This document shows, piece after piece, positions 2,115-59,130 of a stretch of 64,000 nt of DNA; position 1 is the stretch's first letter; the number at the start of each line of letters is the position of its first letter. The translations under genes and the position numbers were made by a program. Location of the stretch: assembly GCA_009760855.2 (NCBI GenBank), contig WPIO01000027.1, positions 308,501-372,500 of the forward strand, given 5' to 3'. The notes under the pieces are model-generated. The model saw nothing but the letters and a program-made list of their open reading frames with translations. It had not been told where the DNA came from and searched no databases. Source of the DNA: Cristatella mucedo (Eukaryota > Bryozoa > Phylactolaemata > Cristatellidae).

Positions 2115-2990
2115 TAAGGTCAGTTTGCGACTCCCGACGTCGACCTCATGCAATTCCACAATCTGCACCAGCTGGGCGTCGATAGGACGTTATACTTGGC
2201 GAGGCTATGACACCCTAATGCGAATCCTCAGAACCCATATATAATGGATTGTTCATTCTTGTCTGCGCTGCAGATCAATGGATCCGTCACCGATGTCGTG
2301 GCAGCGAGGCAGTCTTGAAGCCACCGAGCCCTGCTCTCGTCTTGCGATCGAAGTCACACACTACTGCGACGAGAAATATCTGACGCTGGTGGACTTCGGG
2401 CAGAGCAGATTTACGCTATGGCGGCACATTCCTAGCGAAGAGGTGCACCTTATCACCAGAATGCTGGAGCAAATCTTTCGAAAGAGAAGCCCACCTACAC
2501 AGCTTCTGAAGGATAACACGCCTCGTTCCGATCTGAGGCAGTTCGGCATCTCTGCGAACCCTGGGGCGTTAAGACCGTCAACCCGTGTGCTTACCGACCG
2601 GAAGGCAGCTGCATAGTCGAACGCATGCATCGGACGATCAAGGGCATGGCAGCTCGCACCGGTAGAGGAGTACTAGATACGATGTACTGGTACAATTCGG
2701 CGCGGACTGAGGGGATAAAGGGCGAAACCGTGCCTCGCATGCGGTTATTTACGAATGAATGGCGGTGCCCGCTCCAGCCGAAGAAGGCACAGCACTGCAA
2801 CGCCCGATCTCCCATCAACTACACAGCGGGCCAAAAGGTTTTTGTAAAACCAGCCGATGCACGGTGTTCGACAGAATGGCCGGAAGGAACTGTAACCTCG
2901 GGGACTCACGGCCTTGGTGTCGAGGTGAACGGAATCCGAAGACATGTGTCGGGCATCAGGCTAGTTCCGTATGCTGAGCAGGTATTACCG
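2115..2990 (+). pseudogene. LTR retrotransposon pol fragment: integrase core and C-terminal domain
   Basis: Past the RNase H end the translation shows integrase features in more than one frame. IVERMHRTIKGMAARTGR near 2618-2670 carries the last catalytic Glu of the DDE triad and the usual helix. It is followed by YWYNSA and a C-terminal segment with VFVKPADARC and a short basic-hydrophobic end (GIRRHVSGIRLVPY). The N-terminal zinc-binding part and the first Asp are blurred by stops near 2242 and by frame changes between 2300 and 2600. The last open stretch runs on to 3212 but no longer resembles integrase after about 2990. Confidence 0.72.
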
Positions 2991-3169
2991 GCTCAGCCGC
3001 TAGCACCCTCCCAGATACGAAGCGAAGATGATGAGTATGACGGGGCAGAGGAAAGGGGCAGCCACCAGCTCGGCAAGCGGTCGGAACTGCAGCGCCCGCT
3101 TTGGTTCTCCACTTGGCTTTCCGTATTTCCCCATGCCGTCGCCTTCGATTGCTGCGCATTGCCCTCGCG

Positions 3170-4954: not shown

Positions 4955-5095
4955 GTATTGGTTTGGTCCAGTTGGTTAAGGTGCTCTACCCGACCAAGGT
5001 CTGGCTGAGGTCGTGGGCTCAAGCCACGAGGCATATGTGAAGCTCCTGAATAGAGATTAACTTCTCTTGGGGCGCTAAAAAAAGGAAATATATAT
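4955..5095 (+). mobile_element. SINE family B (tRNA-derived, LINE-like 3' tail)
   Basis: The head reads as a tRNA relative: 'ggtttggtccagttggttaagg' (A box) and 'gtcgtgggctcaagcc' (B box). The 3' end, 'gaatagagattaacttctcttggggcgct', then A/T-rich, matches the last bases of the LINE family L copies in this window. Confidence 0.8.
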
Positions 5096-5583
5096 TTTAA
5101 ATAACCTGGTCCTCTACTGCTGCTGCTGCTACTATCGCCTGGTTGAGCTAGATCCTTCAATGCAGGTTCCCGCAGGGAGGGGGTGCTAAAAGGGTCTGCG
5201 AAGTGGGCTTAACGGGCATTCTGGACACCAGCACCTCCAGCACAATGCTTGCAGGTAGGTCTTTAGGCCGCTACTCATCACCAGGTGACTTAATTGGCAG
5301 CTTAGTAGCCTTATTTCCAAAGCAGTGAGCGTAGAAAATGAAGTCTATCTAGCTGCACTGGTACTCAACGTAGTCTGATGACTAAATGTTTAGCCTACCG
5401 GCAGGCTTATAAAATTAGGGAGATGATTATAGGCCTTGCGAGAATTTGAATTTACTCGTAATAATAGACCGCACGGATAATTTTCCGCTGTAGTCTATTC
5501 AAGGAAGCTTTATTTCAGCGAGTTGCAGATTTAACGATGGTGCTCTTTTCTCGAGTAAACTGACTTTAGTAAGCACATCTCAC

Positions 5584-17315
<11,732 letters not shown>

Positions 17316-18515: not shown

Positions 18516-18910
18516 CGTAAGAATAGTAATAATAATAATTCACTTGATAAAGCGCCCTCAGATAACTTAATCTCTCTCTAGGCGCTTTACATTTGCTGTA
18601 AAGTGAAATGCAATTGAATGGTAAGTAAAATCATGCTTGAAAAACAAACGAAATGAATAATATGGTTAGGGGTGACACGCACAGGGTCAGCATGCAAATG
18701 TGGTTAGTGGCAGCATGCACAGTGTCAGCACGCATAAGCACATCAAGGACGAATCACAGGAACCCACTAAATGCTATCCTAAATAGGTGTGTTTTTAGGT
18801 TCTTTTTAAATGTGGTCAGGTCAGGGGATGTTCTGACGCAGGTCGGGAGGTAGTTCCAGGCTTTGGGAGCATATGAACTAAATGCACGGTCTCCAAAGAG
18901 AAAGTCCTGC
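18516..18910 (-). mobile_element. LINE family L, 3' end fragment
   Basis: TAATAATAA at the left, then the shared tail hairpin, a 3' untranslated part with 'catgcacagtgtcagc', and the last codons of the RT ORF. It is 5' truncated. Confidence 0.85.
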
Positions 18911-19739: not shown

Positions 19740-20680
19740 ATAATGAAACTAACTTACTAGTTATGGGCAAACCCAGTGTGATTCAGAAATTGGAAAAGCT
19801 GACTCTCAAAATTGGCTCTGCCAGCATATGTCCAGTTGAATCAGCTCGAAATCTAGGTGTCATATTCCAAAGCGACCTCTCGTTAGACGACCATATCAGC
19901 TCCACAGTCAAATCTGCCTATTTTCAGCTTCATAACGTTGCTAAAATTCGGGCTTTTTTAAATAAGGATACCACGTCCAAGCTGGTTCATGCAGTCATGA
20001 CATCTCGTCTCGACTTCTGCAACTCACTGCTTACTGGCCTACAAGCACGTGCGATCAGGCGATTGCAGCTGGTGCAAAACTCTGCAGCTAGGCTTGTCTG
20101 TCGTGAGAGTCGCAGTTGCCACATTACTCCACTTCTCACCGACCTGCACTGGCTACCAGTCAAGCAACGGATTGACTTCAAGGTTTTGTCGGTCACCTTT
20201 AGGTCCCTTCATTCTATGGCTCCAGCCTATCTCTCAGATATACTACGCCATCAGGCCAAGCATCGTACCACTCGCTTTTCGGAATCCAACAGTCTAGAAA
20301 TACCTCGTGCAAACCTTAAATCGTTTGGAGACCGTGCATTTAGTTCGTATGCTCCCAAAGCCTGGAACTCCCTCCCGACCTGCGTCAGAACATCCCCTGA
20401 CCTGACCACATTTAAAAGGAACTTAAAAAACACACCTATTTAGGACAGCATTTAGTGGGTCCCTGTGACTCGTCCTTGATGTGCTTATGCGTGCTGACAC
20501 TGTGCATGCTGCCGCTAACCACATTTACAAGCTGACCCTGTGCATTTCACCCCAACCATATTATTCATTTTGTTTGTTAATCAAGCATGATTTTACTTAC
20601 CATTCAATTGCATTTCCCTTTGCAGCAAATGTAAAGCGCCTAGAGAGAGATTAAGTTTTCTGAGGGTGCTTTATCAAGTG

Positions 20681-20722
<42 letters not shown>

Positions 20723-20725: not shown

Positions 20726-20924
20726 TGAAGCACCGACGGATCTCGAACAGCTTCTTGCAATCAGCAGGCATATACCTGCACAACTTCCTGCTGCCTGAGC
20801 CGTAGGGCCTAAGTACGGGGCCGTGAGCAACGCCTCTTCCAAGCCTGTCATGTGCCCTCCCCCAACTGGTAGAGGCGCCGGTGAAAGAACACAATAAGAA
20901 ATCAGCATATTCACATAATATTAA

Positions 20925-20985
20925 TAGGCCGTTTGTATAGAACCCTAAGAGAGCTCAATCTCTATCCACAGCTCCCTGCTTCAAG
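20925..20985 (-). repeat. SINE-B tail fragment
   Basis: 'gtttgtatagaaccctaagagagctcaatctctat' is the reverse complement of a degraded shared tail. Confidence 0.5.
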
Positions 20986-21434
20986 AGAATCAATACCCAC
21001 GTGGTTAGTGAAATCCACGGAGTCAAACATGCAAAAGCAAGCATGTATCGTAAACGGGCTCGAATGCTAAAGTAAGCATTAAGACATAGATAGCCGCCTC
21101 TTAGTAAAACCTCTGGCTAGCAACGTGCACTGAATCGTGTTCAGGTAAGCGTGCAAAGCACACTAAAGCGAAAAAAATAAGCTGATGGGGCCATGGCAAA
21201 GCTGACCGGAACAGACGTGTTTTCAGCTGAGATTTAAAAGATGAAAGATCCTCGCAGTTAGTGACCATAGCCAGAAGACTGAGTTTGAGACTGTCGACCC
21301 ATCCGTGCTGAAGGCGTGATCAACAAAAGATTACTATTCCGTTCTAGGGACGGCAAGACGACCAGATTCTAAGGAGTGGGTAGTGTACAAGCACGTGACT
21401 GGAGCAACACAGAGTTTAGATAGGTAGACCCGGG

Positions 21435-25700: not shown

Positions 25701-27760
25701 TTTCGGAGCCCGTCCGTCGGCAACCATTTTCGGAGCGGCAAATAGATTCCTTAGGTCTGGCTTTCTTAGAAAGACTCTTTCTGGTATGAGACTTCAGCGT
25801 TCAACGTCGCACTTCTAACATGAAATCTTTCGCTGGAGCAAAAGGACAGCCAGCTACTGAACAGTCAAAAAATGTTTACTCTTTAAATCCTACTGTTATA
25901 CCATAACAAGTAGGTGTGACCCAGCTACTGTGAGTGGCCCGAGAATATCTACAATCAGCTCTTAGTCGCTTCAGGTTGCCCTAATTCGACACCGCTACGC
26001 AGCTCAATAAGTAGCATCTTTCTTTTTACCAGCTGCCAAAGTCCCTCGGTAAGTGCTGTTACGAACTTCTGAAAGTGCTCTGAACCATTTCTTTCGGACA
26101 AACGCAAAGGAATGAGTGCTAAGCCTCATTTCACCTAAGCAATACTAAAATAGTTTGCACTTCTTAGCAAGCTTGCACTTCGCAGAAGCAGTCTCCACGT
26201 ATGCATCTAACTTTACTTTTTCCGAAAACAAATTTCATAATCACCCTATCCTCAGAAAATATCCAATTCTCAGAAATTATCACTTAATCCTCAGAACTTT
26301 ATCAACATGCCTGTACGAAAGCATCCAGCTCCAGTCAATTTCGTCTTTTAAATTTCTCTGAGGTCAATCCAAGAAAAAACATGAGAAAATCTGCAATAGT
26401 TGCAGGTCTGCTCCTATTTGACACGAATCTCAGATGATTTTAGCTAAACAAGGTAACAGCAGTGTTTTTAAAATACGGTACTAGAAGCATGCAGAGTAGT
26501 AAAATGGCAACGCATTGCCTAGACAACTGGTAAAATTAAAAGTTTTACCTAATGAAATAAATATTGAAAATATTTTAGGTGGCGGCAAAGTGCCTCCTGG
26601 TGTCATCAGAAAGTGATTGTACACTTGAAAGAACGTCGTTCTCGATCAATACTGCTTAAAGCCATAAATACGCTTTGCAGCGTATTTTGGGAAAGGAGGG
26701 AACCTCCTGATCTTTGTCATCTCAACAAAATTTCCACTATGCTATCGTGCTTGAAACTTGGCGACGCATTCTTTAGCGAATCGTAATAAGCTACTGGTTC
26801 CAAAGCTGGGAGTAATTTTATCCATTAAGATTATCTTTGAGTAGGGCTGGAGAAATGTCTTGGACTGAAGCCACTCTCATCTTTAAAAATGACACACCAC
26901 GGTGTGCCAGTACAGGTCCCAGCATTTTCCTGTTGCACTGCTGCATGCTATGCGGAAAATAACGATGGTCTACTGTCGTCTGGAAAAAAATCTGCAACTG
27001 TCGTTGTGCTTGTGGGTCACTTTCTCCCACTCAGCCGTAACGTTAGGTTGACTTTAAAGTCACGAGGCATTAAAGATGAGGAATTAGCAGTCAACCAGCC
27101 GATTTCATCTTCAGCCCGGCCTTGCAAAAATCCTCGACGCCTCCCGACTCGCATCCACAATCGGCTTGAGTTTTCCCGATAAAAGCGATCTCTAAAGGAG
27201 CTCTCAAAGTTATCTGTGATTTGCTGGAAGGGGCAGACTGGAGGGGCGGCGTCGAGGACGAGGAGCGAGCCAGAGCCTTTTCTCTTTATTTAGGCTTATG
27301 GGACGTGAGGGATCCGGGCTGCCCGAACCAAATCTGCAGCGGTGCAAGACCATCTTTTGCAGAGAGCACTCCTTTAGCACCATCCCGTGGAAGCCTTGCA
27401 GCCTTTCCTTGATGGCCATCAGGCTTATGTCGACTCTGGCGTGCGCCCTTCGGTGAAAAGCTTTAATTTATTTCGTCAGAGTTTAGTTAGTATGGACTTA
27501 ATTTTACTTGGAGGCTGGAAAAGCTACGAGGCTGCAGCGATGAACATGCTCAAGGCCGTTTTCCAGAGAGGTATATATTTTCCAAAGGGAAATTGCATTT
27601 TTTGAGCTTCTGCCAAAAGGAATTGCATTTAAAAATATCAAGTCTTTTTAAACAGGTCCACAGTTTCCTCGCAAATGTGAACAGAGCTTTCCGAGCTGCT
27701 GGCATTTTTGCACAAACCTCCAGAATTTCCAGGTGGCAGTGCGCAGTTCTTTTTAGTAGT
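25701..27760. other. No supported feature
   Basis: AT-rich, unassigned. Short frames without domains only. Confidence 0.4.
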
Positions 27761-27762
27761 GT

Positions 27763-27990
27763 ACGCTTGAGTGCAATGCTTCAGTGCATGAACGCTTGAG
27801 TGCAATGCTTCAGTGCATGAACGCTTGAGTGCAATGCTTCAGTGCATGAACGCTTCAGTGCAATGCTTCAGTGCATGAACGCTTCAGTGCAATGCTTCAG
27901 TGCATGAACGCTTCAGTGCAATGCTTCAGTGCATGAACGCTTCAGTGCAATGCTTCAGTGCATGAACGCTTCAGTGCAATGCTTCAGTGC
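27763..27990. repeat. 29 bp minisatellite, about 8 units
   Basis: The unit is acgcttSagtgcaatgctt plus cagtgcatga, repeated every 29 bases. The first three units carry CTTGAG and the rest CTTCAG. Confidence 0.92.
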
Positions 27991-27994
27991 TGCA

Positions 27995-29290
27995 CGGAGC
28001 TTCGGCTCCCCGAAAAAAGTTTTCACACAGGCTGAAGAACCATCTGAAGATGGCACGTTATCGGTGTGACGCAGTGTGACGTTACTATGCTGATAATTTC
28101 GTCAAGTCAAGTTGGTGTTATGCTGAAGAGCTCACCATCACGCAATCAAAGCTAAGACGTCTTTCGGTTCGCGAGCGGCAACTAGAAGCGTTCATCTCAA
28201 ACCGTGAAACCGTGATCTGCAAAGCGAATTGCTTTGTCCCTAAAATTCCCTACGTCCAAGAATGTCACAATTCATTTAGTGTCCTAAGAGAACTTGAGCT
28301 CACAGTGAGGCTGAAAATGGTATTACAGGTCCGTCAGATACGTCGGAGCCAAATCTTGGCTTTCCTTACAGATCCGAGTAAGTAAGAATTCGGTCTGCAT
28401 TAGTTCGTCAACCGTGAGCTATCGCAGTTCCTATCAAATGTGAATGATGAATGAATTTCTTGAATTTAAAGAAGAATATGGCGGGAATAATTATCATCAA
28501 CTACAGACGCTGAAAGATTTTTTTTCCAGTCGCCTGGCCAATGCAGAATTTCAGAAGATTAATCTAATGGGAATCTGAAAAATAGCTTCAGCTACCCACC
28601 GTAGTACTATGATGACTATTTGTGGATGGGGGCATGTGCATAGACATTTCTAGCGTTGAGTAACGGTCAAAATAATATACGTACATTTTGAATATACATT
28701 CATCGCATACACTACGAGCACTTGATAACAGTTGCACCACTACAACTCTAATTAGGAGACAGGCTTTACCTATTTCAGTCTTACTAGGAGCTTCCTAAGA
28801 TAAGTTCGTTTTTTCTATCAAGGCTTAGCTTGAAATATGCCAAAATCCAGATTTTTTGAAGCTCATTCTGATGGGTGCGAATCGAGTGACTAGCATAGCA
28901 AAGTTTCATCGTTAGGAAGGTATAGCCCATATCACGGGCCTGAGTTAACTACTTCAGATGCACCTTATAGATTACCAGCGTATTCTTCTTATAATTCTGT
29001 ACTTTATTGGGCACTTTATAGACTTGTTGTGTAACAGAAAGTGGAGCTGTATCGTTTTCATACCAACCAACATTTACGATTAACTTAAACATAAATATTA
29101 CCATAACAGTATTAACCAGCATAGGCATCAAGAGCTTAAGTTTCAGGTTTATATCATCAAATAACATATCGGTGCCAATCGAAGGAATGCAAATTCAGAT
29201 CGAGAAGATCTGTAAAATGAAGATGTTGGAGAAGATTTTCTCAGTATTAATGCTTCTGAAGTTAGGGCACTGAAAAATCTTGACGCTGGC
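27995..29290. other. No supported feature
   Basis: Unassigned AT-rich sequence. Confidence 0.4.
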
Positions 29291-29849: not shown

Positions 29850-30080
29850 AATAATAAATAGTATAGCGTCCTCAGAGGAACTTAGTCTCTTTCTGGGCAG
29901 TTTATATATATGCTGTAAAGGAGCCATAATTGAATGGTTAGTGGTACAAGCTCAATGTCAACAAGCGTAACACGGTTAGTGGTAATGTGCACAGGGTCAG
30001 CATGCGTAAACACACAAAGAACAAATCCCATTCACCCACTAAATGCGCGTAAAATATATCCGTTTTCGCTTATTTTTAAA
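29850..30080 (-). mobile_element. LINE family L, 3' end fragment
   Basis: 'ataataataaata', then the tail hairpin in reverse ('cctcagaggaacttagtctctttctgggc') and the 3' untranslated wording 'cacagggtcagcatgc'. It abuts a SINE-B. Confidence 0.78.
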
Positions 30081-30084
30081 ATGA

Positions 30085-30213
30085 TTAAAGTGCTCGCCTC
30101 GACCAAAGGGAAGGTTAATGTACTTTCTGACCAAGGTCATGGGCTCGAGCCCCTCCCCCTCCGTGAGAAACACCTGAGTAGAGATTAAGTTCTCTTGGGG
30201 CGTTATACAAATG

Positions 30214-30250
<37 letters not shown>
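30085..30250 (+). mobile_element. SINE family B copy with TA tail
   Basis: B box 'catgggctcgagccc', tail 'gagtagagattaagttctcttggggcg', then 'aaatgaat' and a (TA)n run at 30218-30248. Confidence 0.78.
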
Positions 30251-31739: not shown

Positions 31740-31910
31740 ATCCACTATATAATATATAATAATATAATAATTCATTTATATAGCGCCCCAAGAGAACTTA
31801 ATTTTTATTCAGGCGCTTCACATGTGCCTCGGGGCTCGAGCTCACGACCTCAGTCAGACCTTGGTCGGGGCGAGCTCCTTAACCGCTAAAACAAACCCGA
31901 TAGGTGATCG
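31740..31910 (-). mobile_element. SINE family B copy
   Basis: In reverse: AT-rich end, 'tagcgccccaagagaacttaa' (tail), 'ggggctcgagctcacgac' (B box), 'ccttaaccgctaaaac' (A-box side). Confidence 0.82.
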
Positions 31911-32429: not shown

Positions 32430-33555
32430 TAAGAACTAGGTTCTATAAGAAAGGTTTACACTCTCCCTCTTGCTGATGTGAAAACCAAGCACAATCTAGT
32501 CTTTAAGTTTTAAGCAGATGACACCCAGTTGTACTATTGCTTTGATCCCTCCAAGCCATTCAGTACGTCGAATTCTCTCAGCTCTCTTACTGCATGTATT
32601 GATGGCATCCTCACATGAATGGCAGCACATTTCCTAAATTGAACGATGATACAACCAACTTACTAGCTATGGGCAAACCAAGTGTGAATCAGAAATTGGA
32701 AAGGCTAACGCTCAAAATCGGCTCTGCTGGCATATCTTCTGTTGAATCTGCATGAATTATGGGTATCTTGTTCCGAAGTAACCTTTCATTACACGACCAC
32801 ATTGGCTCCACAATCAAGTCAGCCTACTTTCAGCTGCATAACATTGCTAAGATTCGGGCTTGTTTAGACAAGGATACCAAGTCAAAAGTTGATCCATGCA
32901 TTTTTGACATGGTCTACCTGCCTGTGCACTTAGGGGCTTACAGCTGGTGTAGAACTCTACAGCTAGGTTCGTCTGTCAAGAGCTTCGCAGTTGTCATATC
33001 ACACCACTTCTCGCCGACCTGCACTGGTTACCAGTCAAGCAACGCATCAACTTCAAGGCTTTGTAACTCATTTTTAGATCCCTTCATTCTTTGGTTCCAG
33101 CCTACCTACCAGATCTACTGCCAACCAGGCTAAGTAGCGTACCACCAACTTCTCGGAATCTAATCGTTTACGTATTCCTCACACAAAACTCAAATCCTTT
33201 GGAGTACATGCCTTTATATCATATGGTCCCAAAGCCTGGAACTTACTCCCGACCTGAGTCACGACATCTCCTCCCTTGTCCGCATTTAAATAGAAATTAA
33301 AAATTCGCATATTTATGAAAGCATTTAGTGGGTCCATGTGATTTGTCCTCTATTTTCTTATGCAAGCTGACACTGTGCATGCTGCCACTAGCAAAACTTG
33401 CATGCTGACCCTGTGCATGTCACCCCTAAACATGTTGTTCTTGTTGTTCATTGAACGTCTACCACCAACCATTCCTACGTGCTTCATTTACAGGAAATGC
33501 AAAGTGCTTACGAAGAGATTGAGTTATCTGAGGGTGCTATATCAAGTGCATTACT
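32430..33555 (+). mobile_element. LINE family L, degenerate 3' half
   Basis: Begins just before the YADD region: 'gatgacacccagttgtac' encodes DDTQLY. It continues through MGKPSVNQKLERL, SAYFQLHNIAKIRACLDKD and a damaged HWLPVKQR block to the 3' untranslated part and tail hairpin near 33510. Several stops and frame changes. Confidence 0.8.
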
Positions 33556-33699
33556 ATTATCAATTAAGAACGAGAAAGTTCTTTATGCCCACTTATGTTA
33601 CGGAACAAGAAGTTACGCACTGTTACGCAAGAAGCTAAAGAAGCTTCAAGCGCAGCTGTTTGTTACAGCATTTCTTGTTGGGTCTTTGTAATTTGTTCT

Positions 33700-35894: not shown

Positions 35895-38800
35895 GTAAGT
35901 ATTATGAAATCTCATGAGTTTTAATCATTTCTTATATTTGTGCTCCGTTTTTGTGTTAACATTAACCCCAAGCGCCCCCCCGGAGTAGACGTGAACCGAT
36001 GCGACCCATATATTATTATTCCGCCAAGTCTGGACGTACCTAATTTACATTTGTCGACCAAATGTATGCCTCTAAACGGGCAGGGGTGCAATGTGCTACA
36101 CACTATGACCTTGCCGATTCGAGTGAGGTGGTCGCTTACTCAGCTTTTCCCGTCGATTAGGCTTGAAATGTAAACCGGAAAAAGGACGTGTCAAGGTGTG
36201 TGCCTCGAACCAGAAAATTTAGCTCTCATTAGAATGGTATACCATGTGGTGGGCTGCTTATGACAGGACAGTGTTAAGTGCAGGCACCCGCCGGCGCTGT
36301 TGTCATCTTTAACTGTGCCTAAGCTACCGGTTCATGCCTGGATTCGCCATTTAGATGGAATTTACTTATCTGGATTGTGATAATAATAATAATAATAATA
36401 TTGCACTTGATAAAGCGCCCTCAGAGAACTTAATCTCTTTCTAGGCGCTTTACATTTGCTGCAAAGTGATACGCAATAGAATAGTAAGTAAAATCATGCT
36501 TGAAAAACAAACAAAATGAATAACATGGTTAGGGGTTACATGCTCTGGGTCAGCATGCAAATGTGGTTAGTGGCAGCATGAACAGTGTCAGCACGCATAA
36601 GCACATCGAGGACGAATCACAAAGACCCACTAAAGGCTGTCCTAAATAGGTATGTTTTTAAGTTTCTTTTAAATGTGGTCAGGTCAGGGGATGTTCTGAT
36701 GCAGGTCGGGAGGGAGTTCCAGGCTGTGGGAGCATACGAGCTAAATGCACGGTCTCCAAAGGATTTAAGGTTTGTACGAGGTATTTCTAGACTGCTGGAT
36801 TCCGAAAAGCGAGTGGTACGATGCTTTGCCTGATGGGGTAGTATATCTGAAAGATAGGCTGGAGCCATAGAATGAAGAGACCTAAAAGTGAGCGACAAAA
36901 CCTTGAAGTCAATCCGTTGCTTGACTGGTAACCAGTGCAGGTCGGCGAGAAGTGGAGTAATGTGGCAACTGCGACGCTCACGACAGACAAGCCTAGCTGC
37001 AGAGTTTTGCACCAGCTGCAATCGCCTGATCGCACATGCTGGTAGGCCAGTAAGCAGTGAGTTGCAGAAGTCGAGACGAGATGTCACGAATGCATGGACC
37101 AACTTGGACGTGGTATCCTTATCTAAACAAGCCCTAATTTTAGCAATGTTATGAAGCTGAAAATAGGCTGATTTGACTGTGGAGCTGATGTGGTCGTCTA
37201 ACGAGAGGTCGCTTTGGAATATGACACCTAGATTTCGAGCTGATGCAACTGGAGATATGCTGGCAGAGCCAATTTTGAAAGTCAGCCTTTCCAATTTCTG
37301 AATAACACTAGGTTTGCCCATAACTAGTAAGTTAGTTTTATCATCGTTTAGTTTTAGAAAATTTGCTGCCATCCATGATCGGATGTCATCAATGCATGCA
37401 GCAAGTGAGTTGAGAGAATTTGAGGTGCTCGAAGGCTGGGAGGGATCAAAGCAAAGGTACAACTGAGTGTCATCCGCATAGAAGTGAAAGCCTAGATTGT
37501 GCTTGGCAATCACATCAGCGAGAGGGAGAGTATAAACGGTGAAAAGGACCGGACCTAGCACAGAGCCCTGAGGTACTCCATATTTTAGAGGTACTTCAGA
37601 TGATCTTTGTCCATTCACGTCAAAACACTCTGGAGTCTCCCACTGAGATAGGACCTGAACCAATGCAGAGCAGTGCCAGTGATGCCCAGGCGAGATGAGA
37701 GGCGCTCTAGAAGTACTTTGTGATCGATGGTATCAAAAGCTGCCGAAAGATCAAGCAAAACAAGCAGAGACACTCTACCCATGTCTGCATTCCTAAGTAG
37801 GTCGTTGTATACCCGAAGCAATGCTGACTCTGTGGAGTGATTAGCTCTAAAGCCAGACTGGAACTTACTAGCAAGGTGTGAGGTTTCGATATACGAGTTC
37901 AGCTGGTCTGCCACGACCCGTTCCAGTGTCTTTGATAGGAATGGTAGAAGGGAGACTGGGCGGTAATTGCTTAAGTTCTCTTGGTCTAGTGTAGCTTTCT
38001 TGAGAAGTGGCCTGACTACAGCTTTTTTGAAAGGTGCTGGGACATGACCTGAGGCTAATGACATATTAATGATGTTAGTTATGCATGGCAGCAGCAGATC
38101 AATGCAACGTAGGAGCAGGGCAGTGGGAATAGGGTCCAAAGGACTTGTCTTCTTTGATTGGGATACGAACTTCAGGACTAGATCACTAGTGACCTGTTTA
38201 AATGCAGACATTGAGGCGCAGCCAGGAACCGAGGAACAGCATTCTAGTGGGAAGGTTGTCATCGCAGGGATGGATTCCCTGATTTTGTCTATCTTCTGCA
38301 CAAAGAATCGAGAGAAGCGATCGGCTAGATCATCACAAGGATCATCAGGTAAGGAGCTAACCTGGGAACGGTTGAGGAGATGGTTTATTGTCGACATCAG
38401 CATTTTTGGATTGTGCATCTGTGATTCAACAATGTTTCTATAGAAGCTAGACTTAGCCTTTGCTAGGATCGATTGGTACGACCTACAGTAGTCTTCATAT
38501 GCCTGTCGATGGACAGTTAGTCTGGATCTTTTGTATGCCTTTTCAAAATTTTGTTTAGTAGACTTGGCTAGTTTAATGTCTGTGGTAAACCATAGGCCGT
38601 CTGGGCGAGGGCGTGATGTAAGCTATTCTACTAGTCGATCTGTTATTTTAAGTTAGTACCGTGTGCTGTTAGTCTCTGTGCGACCAGGTGGTTTTAACTC
38701 TCGAGTTTCAACCTGCTACGTTGAGATGCCTCAGTCTCAGCTGTGAGCTTGATCTGACCGTTTTGTTCCCTTGAAGATAAGCTAAATAGCTCGTGCGGGT

Positions 38801-49399: not shown

Positions 49400-50780
49400 G
49401 AATATGTATGAGTAAAATTGAGCCAAGCCCTGTAGCTAAGTTCAAAGGTATTACACATATAGAAACAGCTGCATCTGTTGGTTTTAAGTACCAAAGATCC
49501 TTGGGAAGCACTGCGTTGATTACAGGGAGGTAGCATCAAACATTTGAAAATTTGTAAGGTTGACAACTGGGCCACATTTACGAGGTTCGTTGGAGAGAGT
49601 AGTTGAATTATTTTGGAACAGCTCCTGCTTAGTTTTTCATAGAAAATGAAATACTCCTAACTGCCATGACCTTAGGCGTGCACCGAAAAATCACATTGGG
49701 CAGGCCTGAGAGCGATCTCGCACAATTATAACTGTGCCAATCCTTTAGCAGTCGAATAAGCTTGTGATTTGGTTCAGAAGCTATTGGAATTTCAGCTTAC
49801 GCAACTTCCTGGCGTACCAAAATAGGTCAAGAAAAATATACTGCCTACTAGAAGTCTGCGTTCGGAACTAAACCCGCATGGAAGTCAATTATTTTCTAGT
49901 GTACTGGCTCTGAAGATATAGCACGCAGGCAGAACCAAGTAAAGTAAAGGCAACATTAAAGTCACGTTCATGCATTTTTTTAATTGCCAGACGCAGACTT
50001 ATTCATCTATAATGGTTGTCTATATGTCTGCTTCGCAGCGGCTCGTGGTGTTGATATATTTGAGTCTAATAGCCCTCAACTCTAGTTTCGCCTTTCTAGT
50101 TATGGCTCTGATAAAGCTACCTCGATTCTAGCTCGGATCCACATAACTTCCATACTTCGATTGGCCCAGCGTTAGCGCGCTGCCAAAATTTAACTGCGTC
50201 GTTCTCCAGGAGCCATCGAGAGCTTTCTGACCAACGCCTTTCTTCTGCTTTCGTTTCGCCCTGTTTGGATCGTCATTTACAGTTTTAAGTCGTGCCAGAG
50301 TCACCTCGTGCAAGCACAGGACGTGGATGACTATAAACATATTCCGAGAATCTTAGCGTCAGTCAAGTAAATAAGTAAAATTAAACGTTGGATTTGAATT
50401 TGATGTTTTGTAAGCTCGGAGGTCCAATTTGTTATTCGGATCCAATTTGTTATTTGTTACTCGGAGGTCCAATAAGTCGGAGGTCCAATCTCATCTGACA
50501 GACCGTGGGTGGGTGGAGGCGCATCCACGTTGATTGTACAAGCAGGTCAGTCATTGGCTCAAGCCATCGGCTGGTCACTATGGTTGGGGTCATGGTAAAC
50601 AACCGTCATGGCCGTCCATACTACGTAACTAGGATGGCTGAGATATGGTAGCTCAAAGTCATCATGCAATTAAGCTCGGACTATTCGTCAGACTTACCCA
50701 TTGGGCTCTTGAAACACAGGTTATACAGGGAACGGCAGTGTAAGCTCGTCACAATTGTGGAAATACCACTTCAGTCTGCG
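49400..50780. other. No supported feature
   Basis: Includes a small direct repeat of 'tcggaggtccaat' at 50417-50490. A minus frame at 50128-50340 has no certain family. Confidence 0.35.
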
Positions 50781-50806
50781 TGGAGAATGGATCTGCAGTA
50801 CCCACA

Positions 50807-50995
50807 ATGAAGTCCGGCGCCGACGTTATTACAGAGCGAGGAGGGGACTCCAGGCCCAGCCGGGCTCATGGTCTTCAGAGGCCGCTGCACCCATTGCAAG
50901 TCCTTGCTTGGGTTGTAATCATTGTCATTGGAGCACTGTATTTCGGAGTGACTGTTCCAGGGCTTCCTTTCGCTTGGCAGCCAGCTGCGTACATT
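50807..50995 (+). CDS. ZDHHC-like exon 1
   Basis: 63 codons, from [14 protein letters not shown] through the first membrane helix to PAAYI. The donor is GTATCC (weak). The in-frame GTG further up is not a start. Confidence 0.85.
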
Positions 50996-53900
50996 GTATC
51001 CTTTTCTGCCAGAACTGGCCTGAAAACGTGTGCATGCCGAGCCGGTTTTATCGTTTTGTTCTCAAGATTAGAATTTTACCAAGTTTCTAACACCACAGTT
51101 TGCTTTCATTTACTTATTTACTTGACTGACGCTAAGATTCTCGGAATATGTTTAGTCATCCACATCATGTGCTTGCTCACAGCGTCTTATATAAATCCAG
51201 CCGATAACAGTGTTTTACGGAAAAATAGGCCGCAGAGTGCTACTCCGTTCGACAGAAGTTTACATAAGCATGTCATTGAGAACTTATATTGCAACATTTG
51301 CTTGGCTGACGTGTAAGCGCTAGTCACCCGCGTTGTTTGTATCTCGCACGTGGCACTTCATGCTCAGCTTTGCCTGTCAGGGAGCAAAGAAATCGTGTGA
51401 ATCCATGCTGCACCCTTTTCCTATTTAACTTGTAGGGGGTCAAAGACGAAGCATTGTGGTGCATGCAACAAGTGCATATCGGATTTTGACCACCATTGTA
51501 AGTGGCTGAACAACTGTGTCGGTGGCAAGAACTACAGGTGAGAGACCCGTTGCGTTGGAGTTTTGATTATGTTTTCTAATGAATTATGCGGTGCTGTAAA
51601 TAAAGAACTCAGGCAAACTTCAAACCCGGATGCAAACACTCTAATCCTGCATCGGTTGTTCACCGGTTCACCATTTGTTGCTGTTTTGCTTAAATGATAG
51701 TGATGATAAAAATGTCATTCATATTTTTCCTTAGGTCGAGCGATGCCAACAAGCAGCTTGCTTGTAATAGCTTACGTTAGAGCCTTAACTAAATGTTCAC
51801 GTGTTGCTCGTAGCCACGCTGTATTTGTACTTGCTGCCTGCCTACTGTACTGCCTTTTCTAAGACGATGGGCTACTTTGGCATAATAATAATAAAAACCA
51901 TACACTTGATAAAGTGCCCTCAGAGAACTCAATCTCTGTCTAGGCGTTTTACATTTGCTGCAAAGGAAACACGATCGAATGGTGAGTGGTATCATGCTTG
52001 ATAAATAACATGGACAACATGGTTAGGGGTGACATGCACAGGGTCTGCATGCAAGTGTGGTTAGTGGCAGCATGTAACAGTGTCAACACACACAAGCACA
52101 TAAAAGACGAATCGCAGACACACAAATATCCTAAATGCACGTTGCATATCATCATGCATATCATCCTTTGATAACTAATTTTTTGAGGCACTTTACATTA
52201 GCTGCAAAGTAAGCATGCCCATTGGTTAGGAATCATATGCATTTTATCGGCTCTCATAGACATACTGAAGACAATACAAAACAAATGCTTCGAGAAAAAG
52301 TACGACTAGAGGCTTTTGTAAATGTCATCAAGTCAGGTTATGTCGTTGGCTCAGTAGGTAGCGATTTTCTGGCAATAGGAGCATATCAAGTTGCAGTTTT
52401 TCAAAGGATTTCATTTTGAATAGGCACAGCTAACCGACTTGAGTCATAAGACTAGGTGGTATACTGCAAAAACGTATTAGGGAGTACCGTATTTTACAAT
52501 GTATAAGCCCCCTGATGTTTAAGCCCCCAAATCTTTGAACCAATTTTTTAGAAAAAATCGTCATTAATAGATGAATGAACTGAACAGTATCAAGACTCAT
52601 AATAATCTCTCGTGTCACTGTCACTATCCTCTGCATCAAGAATGGTGAGGATACCCTCTCCATCTTCCTCGTTCATATCGCAGGCTTAAAATTTGTTGGA
52701 AATTCCGTAATCATCATTATCATCGTCACTCTCTTCATAGACTGTATCTTCTGTTCGGGCCATGGCAATTGTAATGGCACCCTTATTGAAAGATCTGACT
52801 ATAATCTCTGGCTACCTGGCTATCCGGCTGTCGAACTCATTTTGGCAACTAAGTAATCTTTGTTGGGCGACATTCAAAGAAGGTACGCTGTTTAGCACAA
52901 TATTATAGCAAAAAAGTAATCTTCCTTGTGTAAGCCCCCTCTCCATTATCTGACCCCAAATTGTATGGAAGAAGGGGCTTTTACACGATAGAATACGGTA
53001 CTTTAAAGACGTATTGCGAAGCAAGGGAATGAAGTGACTTAAAAGAGCATGGCAGAAACTTGAAGTCGTCACCCTGCTTGATTGGGACTCAGTGCAGGTC
53101 GAAAAGAAGTGGGGTAATGTAGCAATTCAATTTTTCCTTGGGTCGAGCGATGCCAACAAGCAGCTTGCTTGTAATAGCTTACGTTAGAGCCTTAACTAAA
53201 TGCTCACGTGTTGCTCGTAGCCACGCTGTATTTGTACTTGCTGCCTGCCTACTGTACTGCCTTTTCTAAGACGATGGGCTACTTTGGCATAATAATAATA
53301 AAAACCATACACTTGATAAAGTGCCCTCAGAGAACTCAATCTCTGTCTAGGCGTTTTACATTTGCTGCAAAGGAAACACGATCGAATGGTGAGTGGTATC
53401 ATGCTTGATAAATAACATGGACAACATGGTTAGGGGTGACATGCACAGGGTCTGCATGCAAGTGTGGTTAGTGGCAGCATGTAACAGTGTCAGCACACAC
53501 AAGCACATAAAAGACGAATCGCAGACACACAAATATCCTAAATGCACGTTGCATATTTGCTGCTTTGTCCCTAGTTTGGTGTATTCATGTAATGCAAGGG
53601 GAAAACAAAGATAGCCATTGTTGTAGAAGCACAAGAATGGTATGAATATGCTGTCAAATGGAGTAGTCGTGCATCAGGCGATTGGAGCCAGACAGCTCAC
53701 TTTTCGTGCTACTCGCCAATCTGCCTAACCAGTACATGCATCTGCGGTGTCTATGACGTCAATTTTTGGGTGTGTCCGGCATTTGTGCCTGGAAGCGCAC
53801 ACACGGCGGTGCATACACACGTGCGGATGCGAGCCGACTCCTCCACCCACTCATCAACCACCGTTCAGCTTCATGCATGCATACAAGCACAACACCCATA

Positions 53901-56900
53901 CATAACTGCACAAATAGCTGCAGACACTCTCACATACCGAGCGCACAAGCCGCCCAGCCCATTGAACCTTCTTGCGATTATCTTCATCCCCGATTTCTTA
54001 TCCGGCGTGTCTTCGTCGACATCCACGCACCTAGTAGCTTCGCGTCCTCGGCTCGTCTTTCCAGTTCAGAGCAGGAGCCAGTTGCGCTCGGTTCAAGCGA
54101 AGCCCCGCCCCATCTTCCGTTTCAGGTGGTTCATAGCCTCTCTGACTACTGCCGTTATTTGCTGTGCAATCATCACCGCATTGTGTCTGCTGCAATTCGT
54201 CGCCTATTTCACGGACGCTCACACTGGCAGCCTCCTGCAACAGTACTCCAGCAAGTAGCTCCAGCTGGAGGCAGCGCGCTCTCTCTCCCGCTCGTCGCTG
54301 CGGTAGCTCCTGAGCTCGCTGTGGGGTCACAAAGTGTGAGAGGCCCCGGCACTGTGCCGGAGGCCGGCGAAGGTTTGTCGGTCGGTGGGCGGTCCAGCTC
54401 AGCCGTTGCTCTCGCTGCTGCTGCTGCTGCTGCTGCCACGGCTGAGTTACCATGCTTTGCTGCCTAGCCGTAGCGGCACACAGATGAGCGGCCGAGATTA
54501 CTTCAATCACGTGCTGCTGCTGCTGCTGCCCTCCAGGCTGAGGCTGCTTCCGCTTCCTGCTGCAGCCACAGACAGATGTGACCGCTGTAACTGCTGGAAC
54601 CGCTAATCGTTCAGACCTCGGTGATTATTATTTTAATACCAAACCTGGTGTTACTCGGCTCTCAGTCAGAAAGTTTGTGAGAGCCTGCCTATCGTCACCG
54701 TCATTCATCAGTTAAACTTGGGAGCGTTTGCCTGATCTAAAGTAAAAACAAAAACCAAGGTCGCGTGATTCAAGCACCTCATTTAAATAGTGGCAGAAAA
54801 GCTTCACAGGCGATCAGCCCTGCTTGCCGTGAGCAGCACAGGAGAAAAATATTAATAATAGTAATGCATTTGTTATAGTGCCCACAGAGGCATCAATTTC
54901 TTTCTACTCTTTTCTTTCTCTTTTTAAATTCTCTAGGCACTATGCATTTGCTGCAAAGGAAGAACGATCGAATGGCTAGTGGTAGCATGCTCAATGAACA
55001 ATGAAACAAGTATGACCTGGTTAGAGGTGACATGCACAGGGCCAACATGCAATTTTGGTGAGGAGCTGGTTTGGTCTAGCGGTTAAGGTGCTCGCCGCGA
55101 CCAAGGTCTGACGGAGGTCGTGGGCTCGAGCCCCGAGGCATATGTGAAGCGCCTGAATAGAGATTAAGTTTACTTGGGGCGCTATATAAATGAATTATAT
55201 TTTTAGCAGCATGCACCAACTCAGCACAAACAAGCACATAAAGGACGAATCGATTGGTTCCACTAAAAGCTGCGATAAATAGGGGTGTTTTTAGTCTCTT
55301 TTCAAAGCAGTATTGTCAAGCCATGTCGTGACGCAAGCTGGAAGTGAGTTCCAGGCTCTGGAATTGGGAAAAGTAATTTCCCACTTTAGGACTCGAATCC
55401 GTGACCTTGACAGCAAAGTTTGAGCAATCGCCCATACTTTCGCAGCAGACTTGCTGCTACCTGCAGGTCTATATTCATCTGCTTGGTGCGAGTGCAGATG
55501 CTGCACACTCGTCAGATATGTGCAGTTCTATTTATATCTCGTTTGCGCTTTTTTGCAGCATTTTTAAATGGCAATACTTCAGCGCTACCGACAGCAAGTG
55601 GTGAGTACCCAGAGTGAGTATGGCAGCAAGGGGCTGGGAGCAGCGGTAGCTTGTCGTGGACGATCTGGGCAAAATTGAAGGACGTGGCAAAACCGACCGA
55701 AGTCACACGAAACACGTGCTTGGCCGTGAAACCAGGCAGTCTGTGCTATCCGGTCCTCCAATAACTCCTCATTACTCGCACGGCTGCCCCTGAGGTATAA
55801 CGAAAGCAGGAGGTAATCACGCTTGACGACTTGGGTTATAGTTTGGAGTCATATTGGCAGGCTCTTTCTTATTGCCTATTGCAAGTGGGGGTCACATTAA
55901 GCCACTGTACAGCTGTTCCGCTGCTACAGGCTGTAAATAAGGCTGTTTTTGCCGATATTTGCCTTTTTTCTTGCAACTGCATTCACACACGCTTTGTTGC
56001 TTTTGTGCACAGATGCATTTGTATGGTATGGCCAATATCCCCCTCTCTCACTCACTCACTCCCTCACTTCTTTACTCACTCACTCACTCACTCACTCACT
56101 CACTCACTCACTCACTCACTCACTCACTCACTCACTCACTCACTCACTCACTCTCTCTCTTCCTTCTCTCTTTCCCTTCCCGTAGCTTCTGCTTCTGCTC
56201 TCATTCTATCCCTTTCCTTCTTTCTAAGCATTCATTCACTTACTCTCACACACTCTACTACATTTTAACTTACTCTTTCTCCCCACTTGTCTGTCTGTCT
56301 TGGTCTATCTGTTTCCTTGTAACCCTCTCTCTTTCTTTTCTTTGTGTATCGACATGTTTTGCCTAATCAGCAGGGCCTGAATGCAAGTTATCAGCGTTAG
56401 GTCGCTTGGTCGATCTCATACTTTTTGTGCACTGATCGTTGCTGCCTTTTAACTAGCGCAGCATTTCTCTGCAGCCACTAGAATGCCAGGTTGATCTTAA
56501 TAACAAAAGGTTGGCGGTAGCTTGCAACAGAGTGGCTACCTCAGAGTTAGCATGATTAACTTACCAGTGACGTGTTGGAAACAAACCCTCAATTGGAACC
56601 TTGACTTCAATGCAAAAATCCTCACCATGATATTAGCCGTTGTATCATTACACATAATAGTGCAACGGCACTGCAGTCACAATTATGATTGTGGTAGATG
56701 AGAGGTGGCAGCAGCAGAGCTGGCAGCATCAGCAGCAGCTGCAGGAGCTAGCCCTGGCTTTGAAGTAGCGGCAATCTGCATTGCCATCGGTGCTTACCAC
56801 GGCATTTCGACTGCCTGCGTGCAGACACGCTGAGGGTGTTAGGGGTTTGCGGTTTCAGGTTGCCTTCGGATTGCAGCAGCCTCTGCTGCCACTCACACTG

Positions 56901-57952
56901 CCTGGCAGCATAGGGAGTCTTCTTGTATTTAGAGTCTGCTTTCTCTGCCACCCTGACTGCCCCTGCTGCTAGCTTCGGCTGCAGTTTACTTGTCTGCCCG
57001 CCCGATTGACCGTCACGCCGTCAAAAGGCTGCACAGCGTGCCGGCGCGCTGTGCAGCCTTTTGACGAGTTCAGCAGTTGCCACCCGGCAGCTACTGTCGC
57101 GATGGCAGACATTCTCTGTGCTCGCTCTTTGCACCTTTGCTTCTTCCTCTGTTCAAGTCAAATCGAGATCCATCTAGTCAAGCTCGGCGACTTGCGGCCG
57201 CAGTCCGAGCACCGAAGCGCCAGACTCCAAGCCGAGGCTGCCCTCGTTTTCGGGGCGGCATGATCTCTGGGTGTGAGCCCTCGTTGCTCTTTGCTTTGCT
57301 CTTCTCTCGTTTCGCCAGCCTACTGTGCCCGCCTACTGTGCCCGCCTACTGTGCCCGCCTACTGTGCCCGCCTACTGTGCCCGCCTACTGTGCCCGCCTA
57401 CTGTGCCCGCCTACTGTGCCCGCCTACTGTGCCCGCCTACTGTGCCCGCCTACTGTGCCCGCCGGCTGCTCGTGCTAGTTGAAAATTGCCCTGAATCACC
57501 GTAGTGCTGATAAACCGTTCGATGGCGTAAGAAAATTCAGTGCAGCTCAATGGTAGCATTGCTGAGCCCGGTGTCATTGATGCTCTCAACTTATGGGCAA
57601 ACCTGTGGTCATATCGTCGACTAGTGCTTGCACCGTCTAGACGTGGCTCCCACATGCACAATTCACTTGCAATATCGCACACGTGCCAACTCATGGAATA
57701 TCTTCATTAATTCTGCCTTCCTGTGGTTGATTGACAGTGATGTATACCATCTGTCAGGCAGCCATTAGACAATGAGTGCAGCGGCAGTGAACGGCACCCT
57801 GTATGCACTGTCCCTGCTTGCAGCCGACTTCAGGATCATGAGCGCTAATGTGCCACACGAGGCTTGGCTGGCGGTGACTGTGCTCGAGTGCGCGCTCACC
57901 CTTGTGGCACTGCTGCTTCTCGCTCACCTGATCGTGTTCCACATCTACCTCA
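50807..57952 (+). CDS. ZDHHC1/11-like palmitoyltransferase, five exons seen, 3' end outside
   Basis: Exons 50807-50995, 51137-51312, 51436-51537, 54126-54250 and about 57782-57952 encode some 254 residues. The order is TM1 ([20 protein letters not shown]), TM2, the NPAD turn, a Cys-rich domain ([18 protein letters not shown]) with the catalytic motif [10 protein letters not shown] intact, TM3 ([16 protein letters not shown]) and TM4 ending HLIVFHIYL. The spacing agrees closely with human ZDHHC1. Such enzymes sit in ER or Golgi membranes and transfer palmitate to cysteines; vertebrate ZDHHC1 and ZDHHC11 also act on STING/MITA signalling. The start is the first ATG in frame (ACAATGA context). 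Exon 4 appears to use a GC donor. The last exon ends in phase 1 at GTAAGT where the human protein continues with a Trp-His-rich turn; no following exon was found up to 64000. The assignment to ZDHHC1 versus ZDHHC11 is not settled. Confidence 0.9.
51137..51312 (+). CDS. ZDHHC-like exon 2
   Basis: [37 protein letters not shown]. Ends in phase 2 at GTAAGC. Confidence 0.88.
51436..51537 (+). CDS. ZDHHC-like exon 3, catalytic DHHC exon
   Basis: [32 protein letters not shown]. The acceptor is ttaacttgtag and the donor is GTGAGA. The catalytic Cys is the fourth residue of DHHC. Confidence 0.93.
51725..52149. repeat. 425 bp direct duplication, copy 1
   Basis: Matches 53132-53556 at a constant offset of 1407 bases, with only about three differences noticed. 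It includes a LINE-L 3' end (-) at 51880-52149 and about 150 bases of other sequence. Confidence 0.93.
52165..53130 (-). mobile_element. LINE family L fragment, split by a TIR element
   Basis: 'gaggcactttacattagctgcaaag' begins a 3' end. RT C-terminal wording continues to 52478 and resumes at 53009 ('gcatggcagaaacttgaagtc'). Confidence 0.65.
52479..53008. mobile_element. Non-autonomous DNA transposon (TIR element, ~530 bp)
   Basis: The left end, from 52483, reads agtaccgtattttacaatg, then tataagccccc. The right end, to 53002, is its inverted match with a few changes (aggggcttttacacgatagaatacggtact). ACGTATT stands on both sides (52472-52478 and 53009-53015) as a likely target duplication, and the LINE resumes across it. 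There is no transposase frame. The superfamily is not certain; a 7-8 bp duplication would fit hAT-like elements. Confidence 0.72.
53132..53556. repeat. 425 bp direct duplication, copy 2
   Basis: Second copy of 51725-52149, same orientation, within the same ZDHHC-like intron. Confidence 0.93.
54126..54250 (+). CDS. ZDHHC-like exon 4, third membrane helix
   Basis: Joins as AG|G to give Arg, then [33 protein letters not shown]. The best donor is GCAAGT (GC-AG class), phase 1. The open frame running upstream from 53770 is intron and not part of the protein. Confidence 0.82.
54416..54437. repeat. (CTG)n microsatellite
   Basis: Seven CTG triplets in a GC-rich part of a ZDHHC-like intron; another short CTG run is at 54512-54530. 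Confidence 0.85.
54770..54835 (-). repeat. SINE family A tail fragment
   Basis: 'gtgattcaagcacctcatttaaatagtggcagaaaagcttcacaggc' matches the reversed 3' part. Confidence 0.5.
54845..55350 (-). mobile_element. LINE family L 3' end, split by SINE-B
   Basis: The left half (54860-55065) has the tail region with an extra T/C-rich insertion and 'gacatgcacagggccaacatgc'. The right half (55201-55350) continues with 'agcagcatgcac' and 'aagcacataaaggacgaatc'. The SINE lies between. Confidence 0.82.
55066..55200 (+). mobile_element. SINE family B, cleanest copy, nested in a LINE
   Basis: Head 'gctggtttggtctagcggttaagg', B box 'gtcgtgggctcgagccc', tail 'gcgcctgaatagagattaagttt' then 'acttggggcgctatataaatgaattatat'. 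Its orientation is opposite to the host LINE. Confidence 0.9.
56046..56152. repeat. (ACTC)n microsatellite
   Basis: About 25 tetranucleotide units in a pyrimidine-rich intron stretch that continues to about 56340. Creates Leu-Thr-His-Ser frames that are not genes. Confidence 0.95.
57019..57066. other. Perfect 20 bp inverted repeat with 8 base loop
   Basis: CGTCAAAAGGCTGCACAGCG, loop TGCCGGCG, then its exact reverse complement. It lies in the fourth ZDHHC-like intron. It could fold as a hairpin RNA or cruciform. No other copy seen in the window. Confidence 0.9.
57318..57463. repeat. 13 bp minisatellite, about 11 units
   Basis: The unit gcctactgtgccc is practically identical throughout, ending about 320 bases before the ZDHHC-like exon 5. 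Confidence 0.95.
57782..57952 (+). CDS. ZDHHC-like exon 5, fourth membrane helix
   Basis: [14 protein letters not shown], then [20 protein letters not shown] and VFHIYL. The donor is GTAAGT, phase 1. The 5' border is uncertain: gtgcag at 57781 fits the phase, while ag at 57768 or 57787 are alternatives. Confidence 0.8.
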
Positions 57953-58084: not shown

Positions 58085-58275
58085 AATACAGAGGGCAGAA
58101 GATTTGCATGCTGACCCTGTGCATGTCACTTCTAACCATTGTAGGCTTGCTGCCATTGAGCATGCTACCACTATACATTCGACCGTGCTTCCATTGGAGC
58201 AAATGTAAAGTGCGTAGAAAGAAAGGGATTGGGTTCTCTGAGGGCACTATAACAGTTGTATTATTATTATTGTTG
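58085..58275 (+). mobile_element. LINE family L 3' end fragment
   Basis: 'gcatgctgaccctgtgcatgtcac', 'gcaaatgtaaagtgcgtag', 'gattgggttctctgagggcac' and ATT triplets to 58270. Confidence 0.85.
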
Positions 58276-58400
58276 TTACTATAAAGAGCCTTAGTGGCCT
58301 CGCCTGCCTACAGTCGGCAGAAATGCAGGAATGCCTGCCATAAGGCTCTAGCCGACTGCCTGGGCCGTGAAGTGCTAGCACCTCACCATTCTGCTAAGAC
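58276..58400 (-). mobile_element. SINE family A fragment
   Basis: 'ataaagagccttagtggc', 'ctgccgtgaag'-like centre and 'cacctcaccattctg' in reverse. Diverged. Confidence 0.5.
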
Positions 58401-58824: not shown

Positions 58825-58945
58825 CCCAAAGCCTTAACAGCTATCACCACTACTTGCAGTGAACAATAAAGGATCACCCACTGCAGGGTTCGAACCCACG
58901 ACTCTCGCCATGAAGAGCAAGCACCTTACCTCCTGGGCGAAGACC
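58825..58945 (-). mobile_element. SINE family A copy
   Basis: 'ccttaacagctatcaccactacttgcagt', 'gggttcgaacccacgac' (perfect B box) and 'accttacctcctgggcgaagacccaggggc'. Confidence 0.85.
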
Positions 58946-58954: not shown

Positions 58955-59130
58955 AGTTAAAATTTAGCTGATTCATCAGCCTCATTTATATCGAGACAGA
59001 AGAGCCTTACCAGCTATCACCCCCACTTGCAGTAGGCAATACAGGATCTTTCACTGCAGGACTCGAACCGACGACCCGGTTCGTGAAGAGAGAATACCTT
59101 ACCAACCTCTTCCCACGGCTAACACCCAGG
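58955..59130 (-). mobile_element. SINE family A copy, tandem neighbour
   Basis: 'agctgattcatcagcctcatttatatc' (full tail), 'agctatcacccccacttgcagt', 'gactcgaaccgacgac'. Same orientation as the copy just before it. Confidence 0.85.

Follow-up and report, generated by a model that had tools for sequence, protein, structure and literature searches.

The hairpin tail of a bryozoan SINE appears to come from an L2-like LINE that looks extinct

Short interspersed elements (SINEs) that end in the tail of an L2 long interspersed element (LINE) are known from several animals. The excerpted text of one source lists SINE2-8_SP with L2-1_SP in sea urchin, Nve-Nin-DC-SINE-1 with L2-22_NV in sea anemone and MIR with L2 in mammals, and gives tRNA-type SINEs with L2 tails for fish, mammals, sea urchin and sea anemone (PMC3747384). 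In zebrafish L2 LINEs, according to excerpts of a second source, the stretch between endonuclease (EN) and reverse transcriptase (RT) binds the 3' stem-loop, the stem being read generally and the loop specifically (PMC4176376). Here we describe a comparable case in the bryozoan Cristatella mucedo, in a window of 64,000 nt (contig WPIO01000027.1, positions 308,501 to 372,500), which holds copies of a SINE (SINE-B), of an abundant LINE (LINE-L) and of an old L2-like LINE (LINE-M).

A preliminary description of the window had proposed that SINE-B and LINE-L share a 3' stem-loop tail and that LINE-L probably mobilises SINE-B. Our analysis suggests, with a probability of about 0.66, that SINE-B carries a tail of the LINE-M branch and was later helped by LINE-L. 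The SINE-B RNA would end in a two-part hairpin that is bound by the ORF2 protein that L2-like LINEs encode, and would be copied in trans by target-primed reverse transcription. LINE-M or a close relative, we infer, would have been the tail donor and first helper; LINE-M would then have died out and SINE-B gone on making copies. The young copies would most likely be helped by LINE-L, which appears recently active and whose apical loop and two main stems are those of SINE-B.

The tail shared by SINE-B and LINE-L

The window contains six copies of SINE-B. All six, and all five LINE-L ends named in the preliminary description, are present, together with several more LINE-L ends. The SINE-B features are as follows.

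4959..5099, plus strand: SINE-B copy (six-copy profile)
15036..15176, plus strand: SINE-B copy (six-copy profile)
16614..16765, plus strand: older SINE-B copy, tail end TTAGGGTGCTATGCAAACGAG, nearer to LINE-M
30073..30227, plus strand: older SINE-B copy (profile)
31758..31898, minus strand: SINE-B copy (six-copy profile)
55067..55207, plus strand: SINE-B copy with A-box and B-box-like head and hairpin tail of about 62 nt, inside a LINE-L 3' untranslated region (UTR)
55143..55187, plus strand: hairpin part of that tail, with outer stem AAGCGCC/GGGCGCT, inner stem and consensus loop UUAAGU

The LINE-L features, including the open reading frame (ORF) for RT, are as follows.

18522..18812, minus strand: LINE-L 3' end
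20409..20699, plus strand: LINE-L 3' end
33283..33563, plus strand: older LINE-L 3' end
36385..36675, minus strand: LINE-L 3' end, with end of ORF, 3' UTR, hairpin tail and ATT repeats
36617..37732, minus strand: C-terminal part of the LINE-L RT ORF (ORF and Pfam)
37615..38622, minus strand: N-terminal part of the LINE-L RT ORF, in a different frame; this copy is 5' truncated
51884..52134, minus strand: LINE-L 3' end
53291..53542, minus strand: LINE-L 3' end that overlaps a duplicate (99% identical) of the stretch at 51.7-52.0 kb
54848..55066, minus strand: one half of a LINE-L 3' UTR split by SINE-B
55204..55306, minus strand: the other half of that 3' UTR
58100..58277, plus strand: old LINE-L 3' end

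About 62 bases at the end of the six SINE-B copies are common to the LINE-L 3' ends. A profile built only from these six copies picks up LINE-L ends at 26.7, 25.8 and 24.0 bits, against 7.3 bits for the best match in 20 dinucleotide-shuffled windows, and its matches to LINE-L are confined to tail positions 70-138; some decayed LINE-L ends rise barely above the shuffled value (7.9 bits at 58224 and 7.7 at 29892). Consensuses of the two families, each made from the 30 best copies in a genome of 572 Mb and 688 contigs, align over SINE positions 79-141 and LINE-L positions 197-261 with a local score of 78, compared with at most 36 in 500 shuffles, while the SINE head scores 16 against the LINE-L body (shuffled maximum 28). 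The shared tail first described is thus real, its bodies are unrelated as stated, and chance is ruled out as its source by the profile and consensus shuffles. The 16-mer agagattaagttctct, present in both consensuses, occurs exactly at two places only in the window (30180, plus strand; 36423, minus strand), with six more on the plus and five more on the minus strand at up to two mismatches.

The SINE-B consensus of about 141 nt consists of a head followed by the tail, with little or nothing in between. The head contains an A box (TGGTCTAGCGG, at 13) and, at 64, a B-box-like motif (GGCTCGAGCC) one base off the B-box consensus; at this motif level SINE-B carries a candidate internal RNA polymerase III promoter. 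The tRNA head of the preliminary description therefore stands as far as these motifs go, but it is not recognised as a tRNA: ARAGORN on the window reported none at the SINE-B copies, and Rfam at E<=10 listed none for two of them. Neither the tail nor the head of SINE-B could be assigned to a family with Rfam, ARAGORN or PDB, where the matches were to RT only, and pieces of the tail had no match in Rfam, including none to the covariance model of the UnaL2 3' element, which we take to be present there.

In LINE-L, a 3' UTR of about 240 nt follows the RT ORF, which matches Pfam RVT_1 as its first reading implied, and the element ends in the hairpin and then (ATT)n. A genomic copy (L061) has one open frame of 1068 aa, with Exo_endo_phos at 138-328 and RVT_1 at 612-840. 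Among solved structures (PDB) the best matches of the ORF are L1 ORF2 and R2; scans of viral contigs and genome contigs, which reach close relatives only, gave no relative of it. LINE-L is probably L2-like, a label based on motifs and on a tail-binding-like stretch. As to its description as a stringent-type LINE, EN and RT are present, and a stretch between them resembles the tail-binding region of L2; there L061, hand-aligned to ZfL2-2 on W, is identical at W325, R338 and E341 and differs at the other three of the six named residues, considered below. Protein identity of 98-99% at 90 of the 110 scored places (mostly residues 36-371), open frames of up to 1068 aa, and three fetched 3' ends that are 100% identical across 264-307 bp indicate that LINE-L is a young, recently active LINE with EN and RT.

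Two arrangements of LINE-L were also observed. Two LINE-L tails lie nearly back to back and inverted at L006:2081-2214, where they form a large palindrome. Window positions 51723-52022 and 53130-53429 form a direct repeat, 99% identical, 1407 bp apart and overlapping a LINE-L end, which from this likeness is a recent local duplication.

The two-part hairpin of the preliminary description is recovered in silico. Both consensus tails are predicted to fold into an outer stem, an inner stem and a six-base loop, with fold z values of -3.7 for the SINE tail at 55140 and -5.3 for the LINE tail at 36405 (-5.3, -4.7 and -4.4 in three young LINE-L copies); among 14 single copies folded, some decayed ones lie near or above zero (33492, +1.0; 29857, +0.2; 58202, -0.6). 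The consensuses of SINE-B, LINE-M and young LINE-L do not differ in the inner 16 bases, which contain the loop UUAAGU, and old LINE-L has a G in the loop (UUGAGU); at the DNA level the apical loop consensus is TTAAGT in 40 young LINE-L copies and TTGAGT in 18 old ones. Young SINE-B, old SINE-B and LINE-M are predicted to fold alike: beneath the outer stem an A.A is left unpaired, at a place where the predicted stem of LINE-L is unbroken.

Stem conservation was assessed in 74 distinct tails. These derive from 138 matches, of which 119 were kept and 77 were distinct and complete, three with inserted bases being excluded (L056:1702, L059:2177 and window 58204). Stem cells are paired in 88.1% of cases, compared with 36-58% when the partners are slid. 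The covarying stems that had been anticipated did not appear: four pairs show two-sided changes, against a shuffled mean of 3.7, and none rises above the shuffles. Since most differences look like post-insertion decay, this test is weak and speaks neither for nor against a functional stem. Its outcome agrees with the idea that the shared tail is a relic, SINE-B having moved otherwise and its hairpin being recognised by no LINE. We consider this idea very improbable, given the pairing of the stem cells, the persistence of the tail at the 3' terminus of SINE-B copies that range widely in divergence, and SINE-B copies that are 5' truncated and yet keep the tail.

Genome-wide, the SINE-type tail of 52 nt (TGAATAGAG...CTCTTGGGG...CTATATAAATG) has 6093 matches at up to three mismatches, and its reversed control has none. 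Sixty exact tails were fetched in order from 100 listed, skipping one already sampled (L002), and SINE-B, full or truncated, lies upstream in 60/60 (55 by profile, five by eye). The 5'-truncated copies among SINE-B are an expected product of target-primed reverse transcription. Target-site duplications were also considered as support and set aside as too weak: a shared word of at least 7 was seen in 17% of the copies (24 readable of 30 fetched) and in 6.7% of re-paired controls.

LINE-M and the proposed helper of SINE-B

The window holds one copy of LINE-M. Of the LINE tails we found, the consensus of this family matches SINE-B best.

20900..21420, minus strand: LINE-M copy, old L2-like LINE, 3' end with ORF remnant

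A 3' consensus was built from 21 LINE-M copies, 20 fetched from the genome and the window copy, which lie 17-27% from it; its tail is TGTAAAGCGCCTGGATAGAGATTAAGTTCTCTTAGGGTGCTATACAAACG. Over 50 positions this tail has six mismatches to young SINE-B and four to old SINE-B, compared with 10 and 10 for young LINE-L and 12 and 12 for old LINE-L. On a profile of the SINE tail only, the LINE-M consensus reaches 51.3 bits and LINE-L 34.6-38.1. The pairing of SINE-B with LINE-L in the preliminary description thus gives way where the origin of the tail is concerned: that description had named another LINE fitting SINE-B distinctly better as evidence that would count against it, and LINE-M is such a LINE.

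Eight positions that differ between the LINE-L and LINE-M consensuses were used as diagnostic positions, with the reference left blank there and 11 of 117 matches excluded as unclassified. All 46 readable SINE-B copies side with LINE-M (two of 48 were dropped as short), as do 18/18 LINE-M copies (3/21 dropped), and LINE-L copies side with LINE-L in 54 of 58 cases, with three siding with LINE-M and one tie. Another 20 SINE-B copies all side with LINE-M, but these had been selected for a LINE-M-like tail. With the older SINE consensus, LINE-M agrees at seven of eight informative positions and LINE-L at one. The 14 SINE-B copies with the most diverged heads, taken as the old set, share TTAGGG and CTATACAAA with LINE-M, and have C at position 45, like LINE-M, and A at 34.

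The LINE-M tail has 569 matches in the genome at up to three mismatches, and no exact one. Of 100 listed, 40 were fetched, chosen by their letters rather than randomly (20 mostly SINE-like and 20 mostly LINE-M-like): 32 have a SINE-B head by profile, two a LINE-M body (L190 and L197, both old, at 79% and 75% to the consensus) and none a LINE-L body. The six without a call comprise L162, L186, L187, L191 and L198, which by eye resemble decayed SINE-B, and L194, which is ambiguous. Of the six places listed at one mismatch, five were fetched and are SINE-B (L160, L161, L183 and L184 by profile, L162 by eye), so that some SINE-B tails are identical to the LINE-M consensus at 46 of 47 positions.

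Taken together, these comparisons place the tail of SINE-B with the LINE-M branch and not with LINE-L. That LINE-L was both donor of the tail and helper is improbable in our view, and as the origin of the tail LINE-L is largely refuted by these comparisons. The 62-nt tail common far above chance, the identical inner hairpin and outer stem, and the overlapping ages of SINE-B and LINE-L are what one would expect of such a donor. The diagnostic positions and the older SINE consensus nevertheless point to LINE-M, and the distance to SINE-B is greater for old LINE-L than for young, so there is no convergence backwards in time. A LINE-L body with a SINE-type tail is moreover absent from the 572 Mb at up to three mismatches of one joined pattern.

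LINE-M itself looks extinct. Relatives of the window copy (the best 40 scored of 854 first-look candidates) are 68-73% identical to it and all old, and a search with the consensus (the best 40 scored of 8984 first-look candidates) gave no young LINE-M, the best scored copy being 85% identical to the consensus. Of five stretches fetched upstream of LINE-M tails, three hold broken ORF remnants and two gave no match. It is this best copy and these broken remnants that make LINE-M look dead.

SINE-B, by comparison, has young copies. Divergence (non-CpG, short alignments excluded) has a median of 3.3% in 29 search picks, ranges over 0-17.1% in 12 other copies and over 0.9-29.1% in a further 20; for LINE-L it is 2.4% in 30 search picks and 1.8-26.7% in 32 other copies, so that activity overlaps, as had been foreseen. 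The copy at 55067-55207 splits a LINE-L 3' UTR into the halves 54848-55066 and 55204-55306, and SINE-B was therefore active after that LINE-L copy. It is possible, though we hold this only tentatively, that the LINE branch from which SINE-B took its tail died out before SINE-B did, and that the sister LINE-L now copies SINE-B without the tail having been swapped. Such a switch of helper is conceivable because LINE-L and SINE-B agree in apical loop and main stems. The loop of the living LINE, UUAAGU in young copies, now equals that of SINE-B, and through the identity of the inner 16 bases young LINE-L could serve as helper at present. We found no other young L2-like LINE with the same loop and main stems, and on this ground LINE-L is inferred as the helper.

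A third, young LINE with a LINE-M-type tail might instead mobilise SINE-B today, with LINE-L uninvolved. We regard this as unlikely, albeit the least unlikely of the alternatives weighed here. In its favor, the youngest SINE-B tail (TTGGGG, TATATAAATG) is identical to neither LINE-L nor LINE-M, and stringent L2 LINEs are reported, in excerpts of PMC4176376, to reject each other's hairpins. Where such a LINE was looked for, however, other elements were found: SINE-B stands upstream of every exact 52-nt tail fetched, and the 40 LINE-M-like tails gave SINE-B heads and two old LINE-M bodies. Sixteen LINE 3' ends, one of them the LINE-L control, picked from 150 places that match a piece of LINE-M protein, all carry the LINE-L tail, and no end with a LINE body in the 254 kb sampled outscores young LINE-L on the SINE-tail profile.

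Several observations weigh against a LINE-M-branch tail later helped by LINE-L. The LINE-M consensus derives from 21 old copies, and single decayed copies score 11.7-44.7 bits, only two of 21 beating the best LINE-L copy (38.9). At position 38 SINE-B agrees with LINE-L (35 of 46 copies, and the old consensus too), at position 45 it does so in 30 of 46 copies, the youngest SINE-B state being that of LINE-L, and the call at position 50 depends on the alignment. In the hand alignment, L061 differs at three of the six named ZfL2-2 residues (P324=L, R334=K, W344=Y). Most of the 24 SINE-B copies read have a short target-site duplication or none, and a clear one is seen in few. The stems are conserved, but compensation is without support in the 74 tails. 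Finally, LINE-L as present helper is uncertain because it does not have the A.A mismatch and because recognition of L2 tails is reported as strict in the excerpted PMC4176376. According to the same excerpts, UnaL2 retrotransposes efficiently only if one nucleotide is bulged out of its stem, which suggests that the unpaired A.A of SINE-B and LINE-M may matter.

Other repeats and genes in the window

A dispersed tRNA-like repeat family is seen at 7886-7994, 16926-17034, 58830-58938 and 59003-59111. Within it ARAGORN calls a tRNA-SeC at 16971-17044 on the minus strand, probably a SINE head rather than a gene. Reverse-oriented tRNA-like SINE heads followed by an L2-type hairpin tail occur at L008:1381-1500 and 1955-2076; these heads resemble window 16976-17052 and 58880-58943, and the two copies may represent another type of SINE or have arisen by local duplication.

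The ORF at 50744-51316 (plus strand) presumably resembles the N-terminal part of animal ZDHHC palmitoyltransferases, and fragments at 15-3212 (plus strand) read like what we take to be a long terminal repeat (LTR)-type element. In that region the RT piece at 1040-1507 has a weak RVT_1 match below the cut-off and the piece at 2517-3212 no Pfam match. Tandem arrays lie at 6701-7120 (20-bp unit), 27731-28019 (29-bp) and 57275-57494 (13-bp).

SINE-B among L2-tailed SINEs

Five strings of SINE-B tail and head letters matched nowhere in the literature searched, where no description of the SINE-B/LINE pair turned up. LINE-SINE pairs are often named by the likeness of their tails; here the abundant living LINE is not the best match, and a decayed LINE is. 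The case of SINE-B is thus a warning against pairing a SINE with its nearest living LINE. One SINE with two sister LINEs is, in addition, a natural experiment on the strictness with which L2 proteins read hairpins: the differences are few and lie outside the loop.

UnaL2/UnaSINE1 of eel, a pair for which function of the common 3' sequence has been demonstrated, likewise consists of an L2-like LINE and a tRNA-type SINE, and in both systems the shared tail is followed by short repeats, although UnaL2 ends in TGTAA repeats and LINE-L in ATT repeats (excerpts of PMC3747384 and PMC4176376). UnaSINE1 is listed as a CORE-SINE in the excerpted PMC3747384, whereas in SINE-B the tail follows the head directly or nearly so. 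LINE-L resembles ZfL2-1 and ZfL2-2 of zebrafish, as excerpted in PMC4176376, in combining endonuclease, a tail-binding or tail-binding-like stretch before the RT, and RT in one protein, and in its 3' stem-loop. It differs from ZfL2-2 in having L for P324, K for R334 and Y for W344, and its recognition of the tail is putative. The SINE2-8_SP, Nve-Nin-DC-SINE-1 and MIR pairs are likened to SINE-B by their listing; what sets SINE-B apart from them is that its best-matching LINE looks extinct and it nonetheless has young copies. SINE-B is an addition to the known class of L2-tailed SINEs, with the twist that the LINE matching best appears to have died out.

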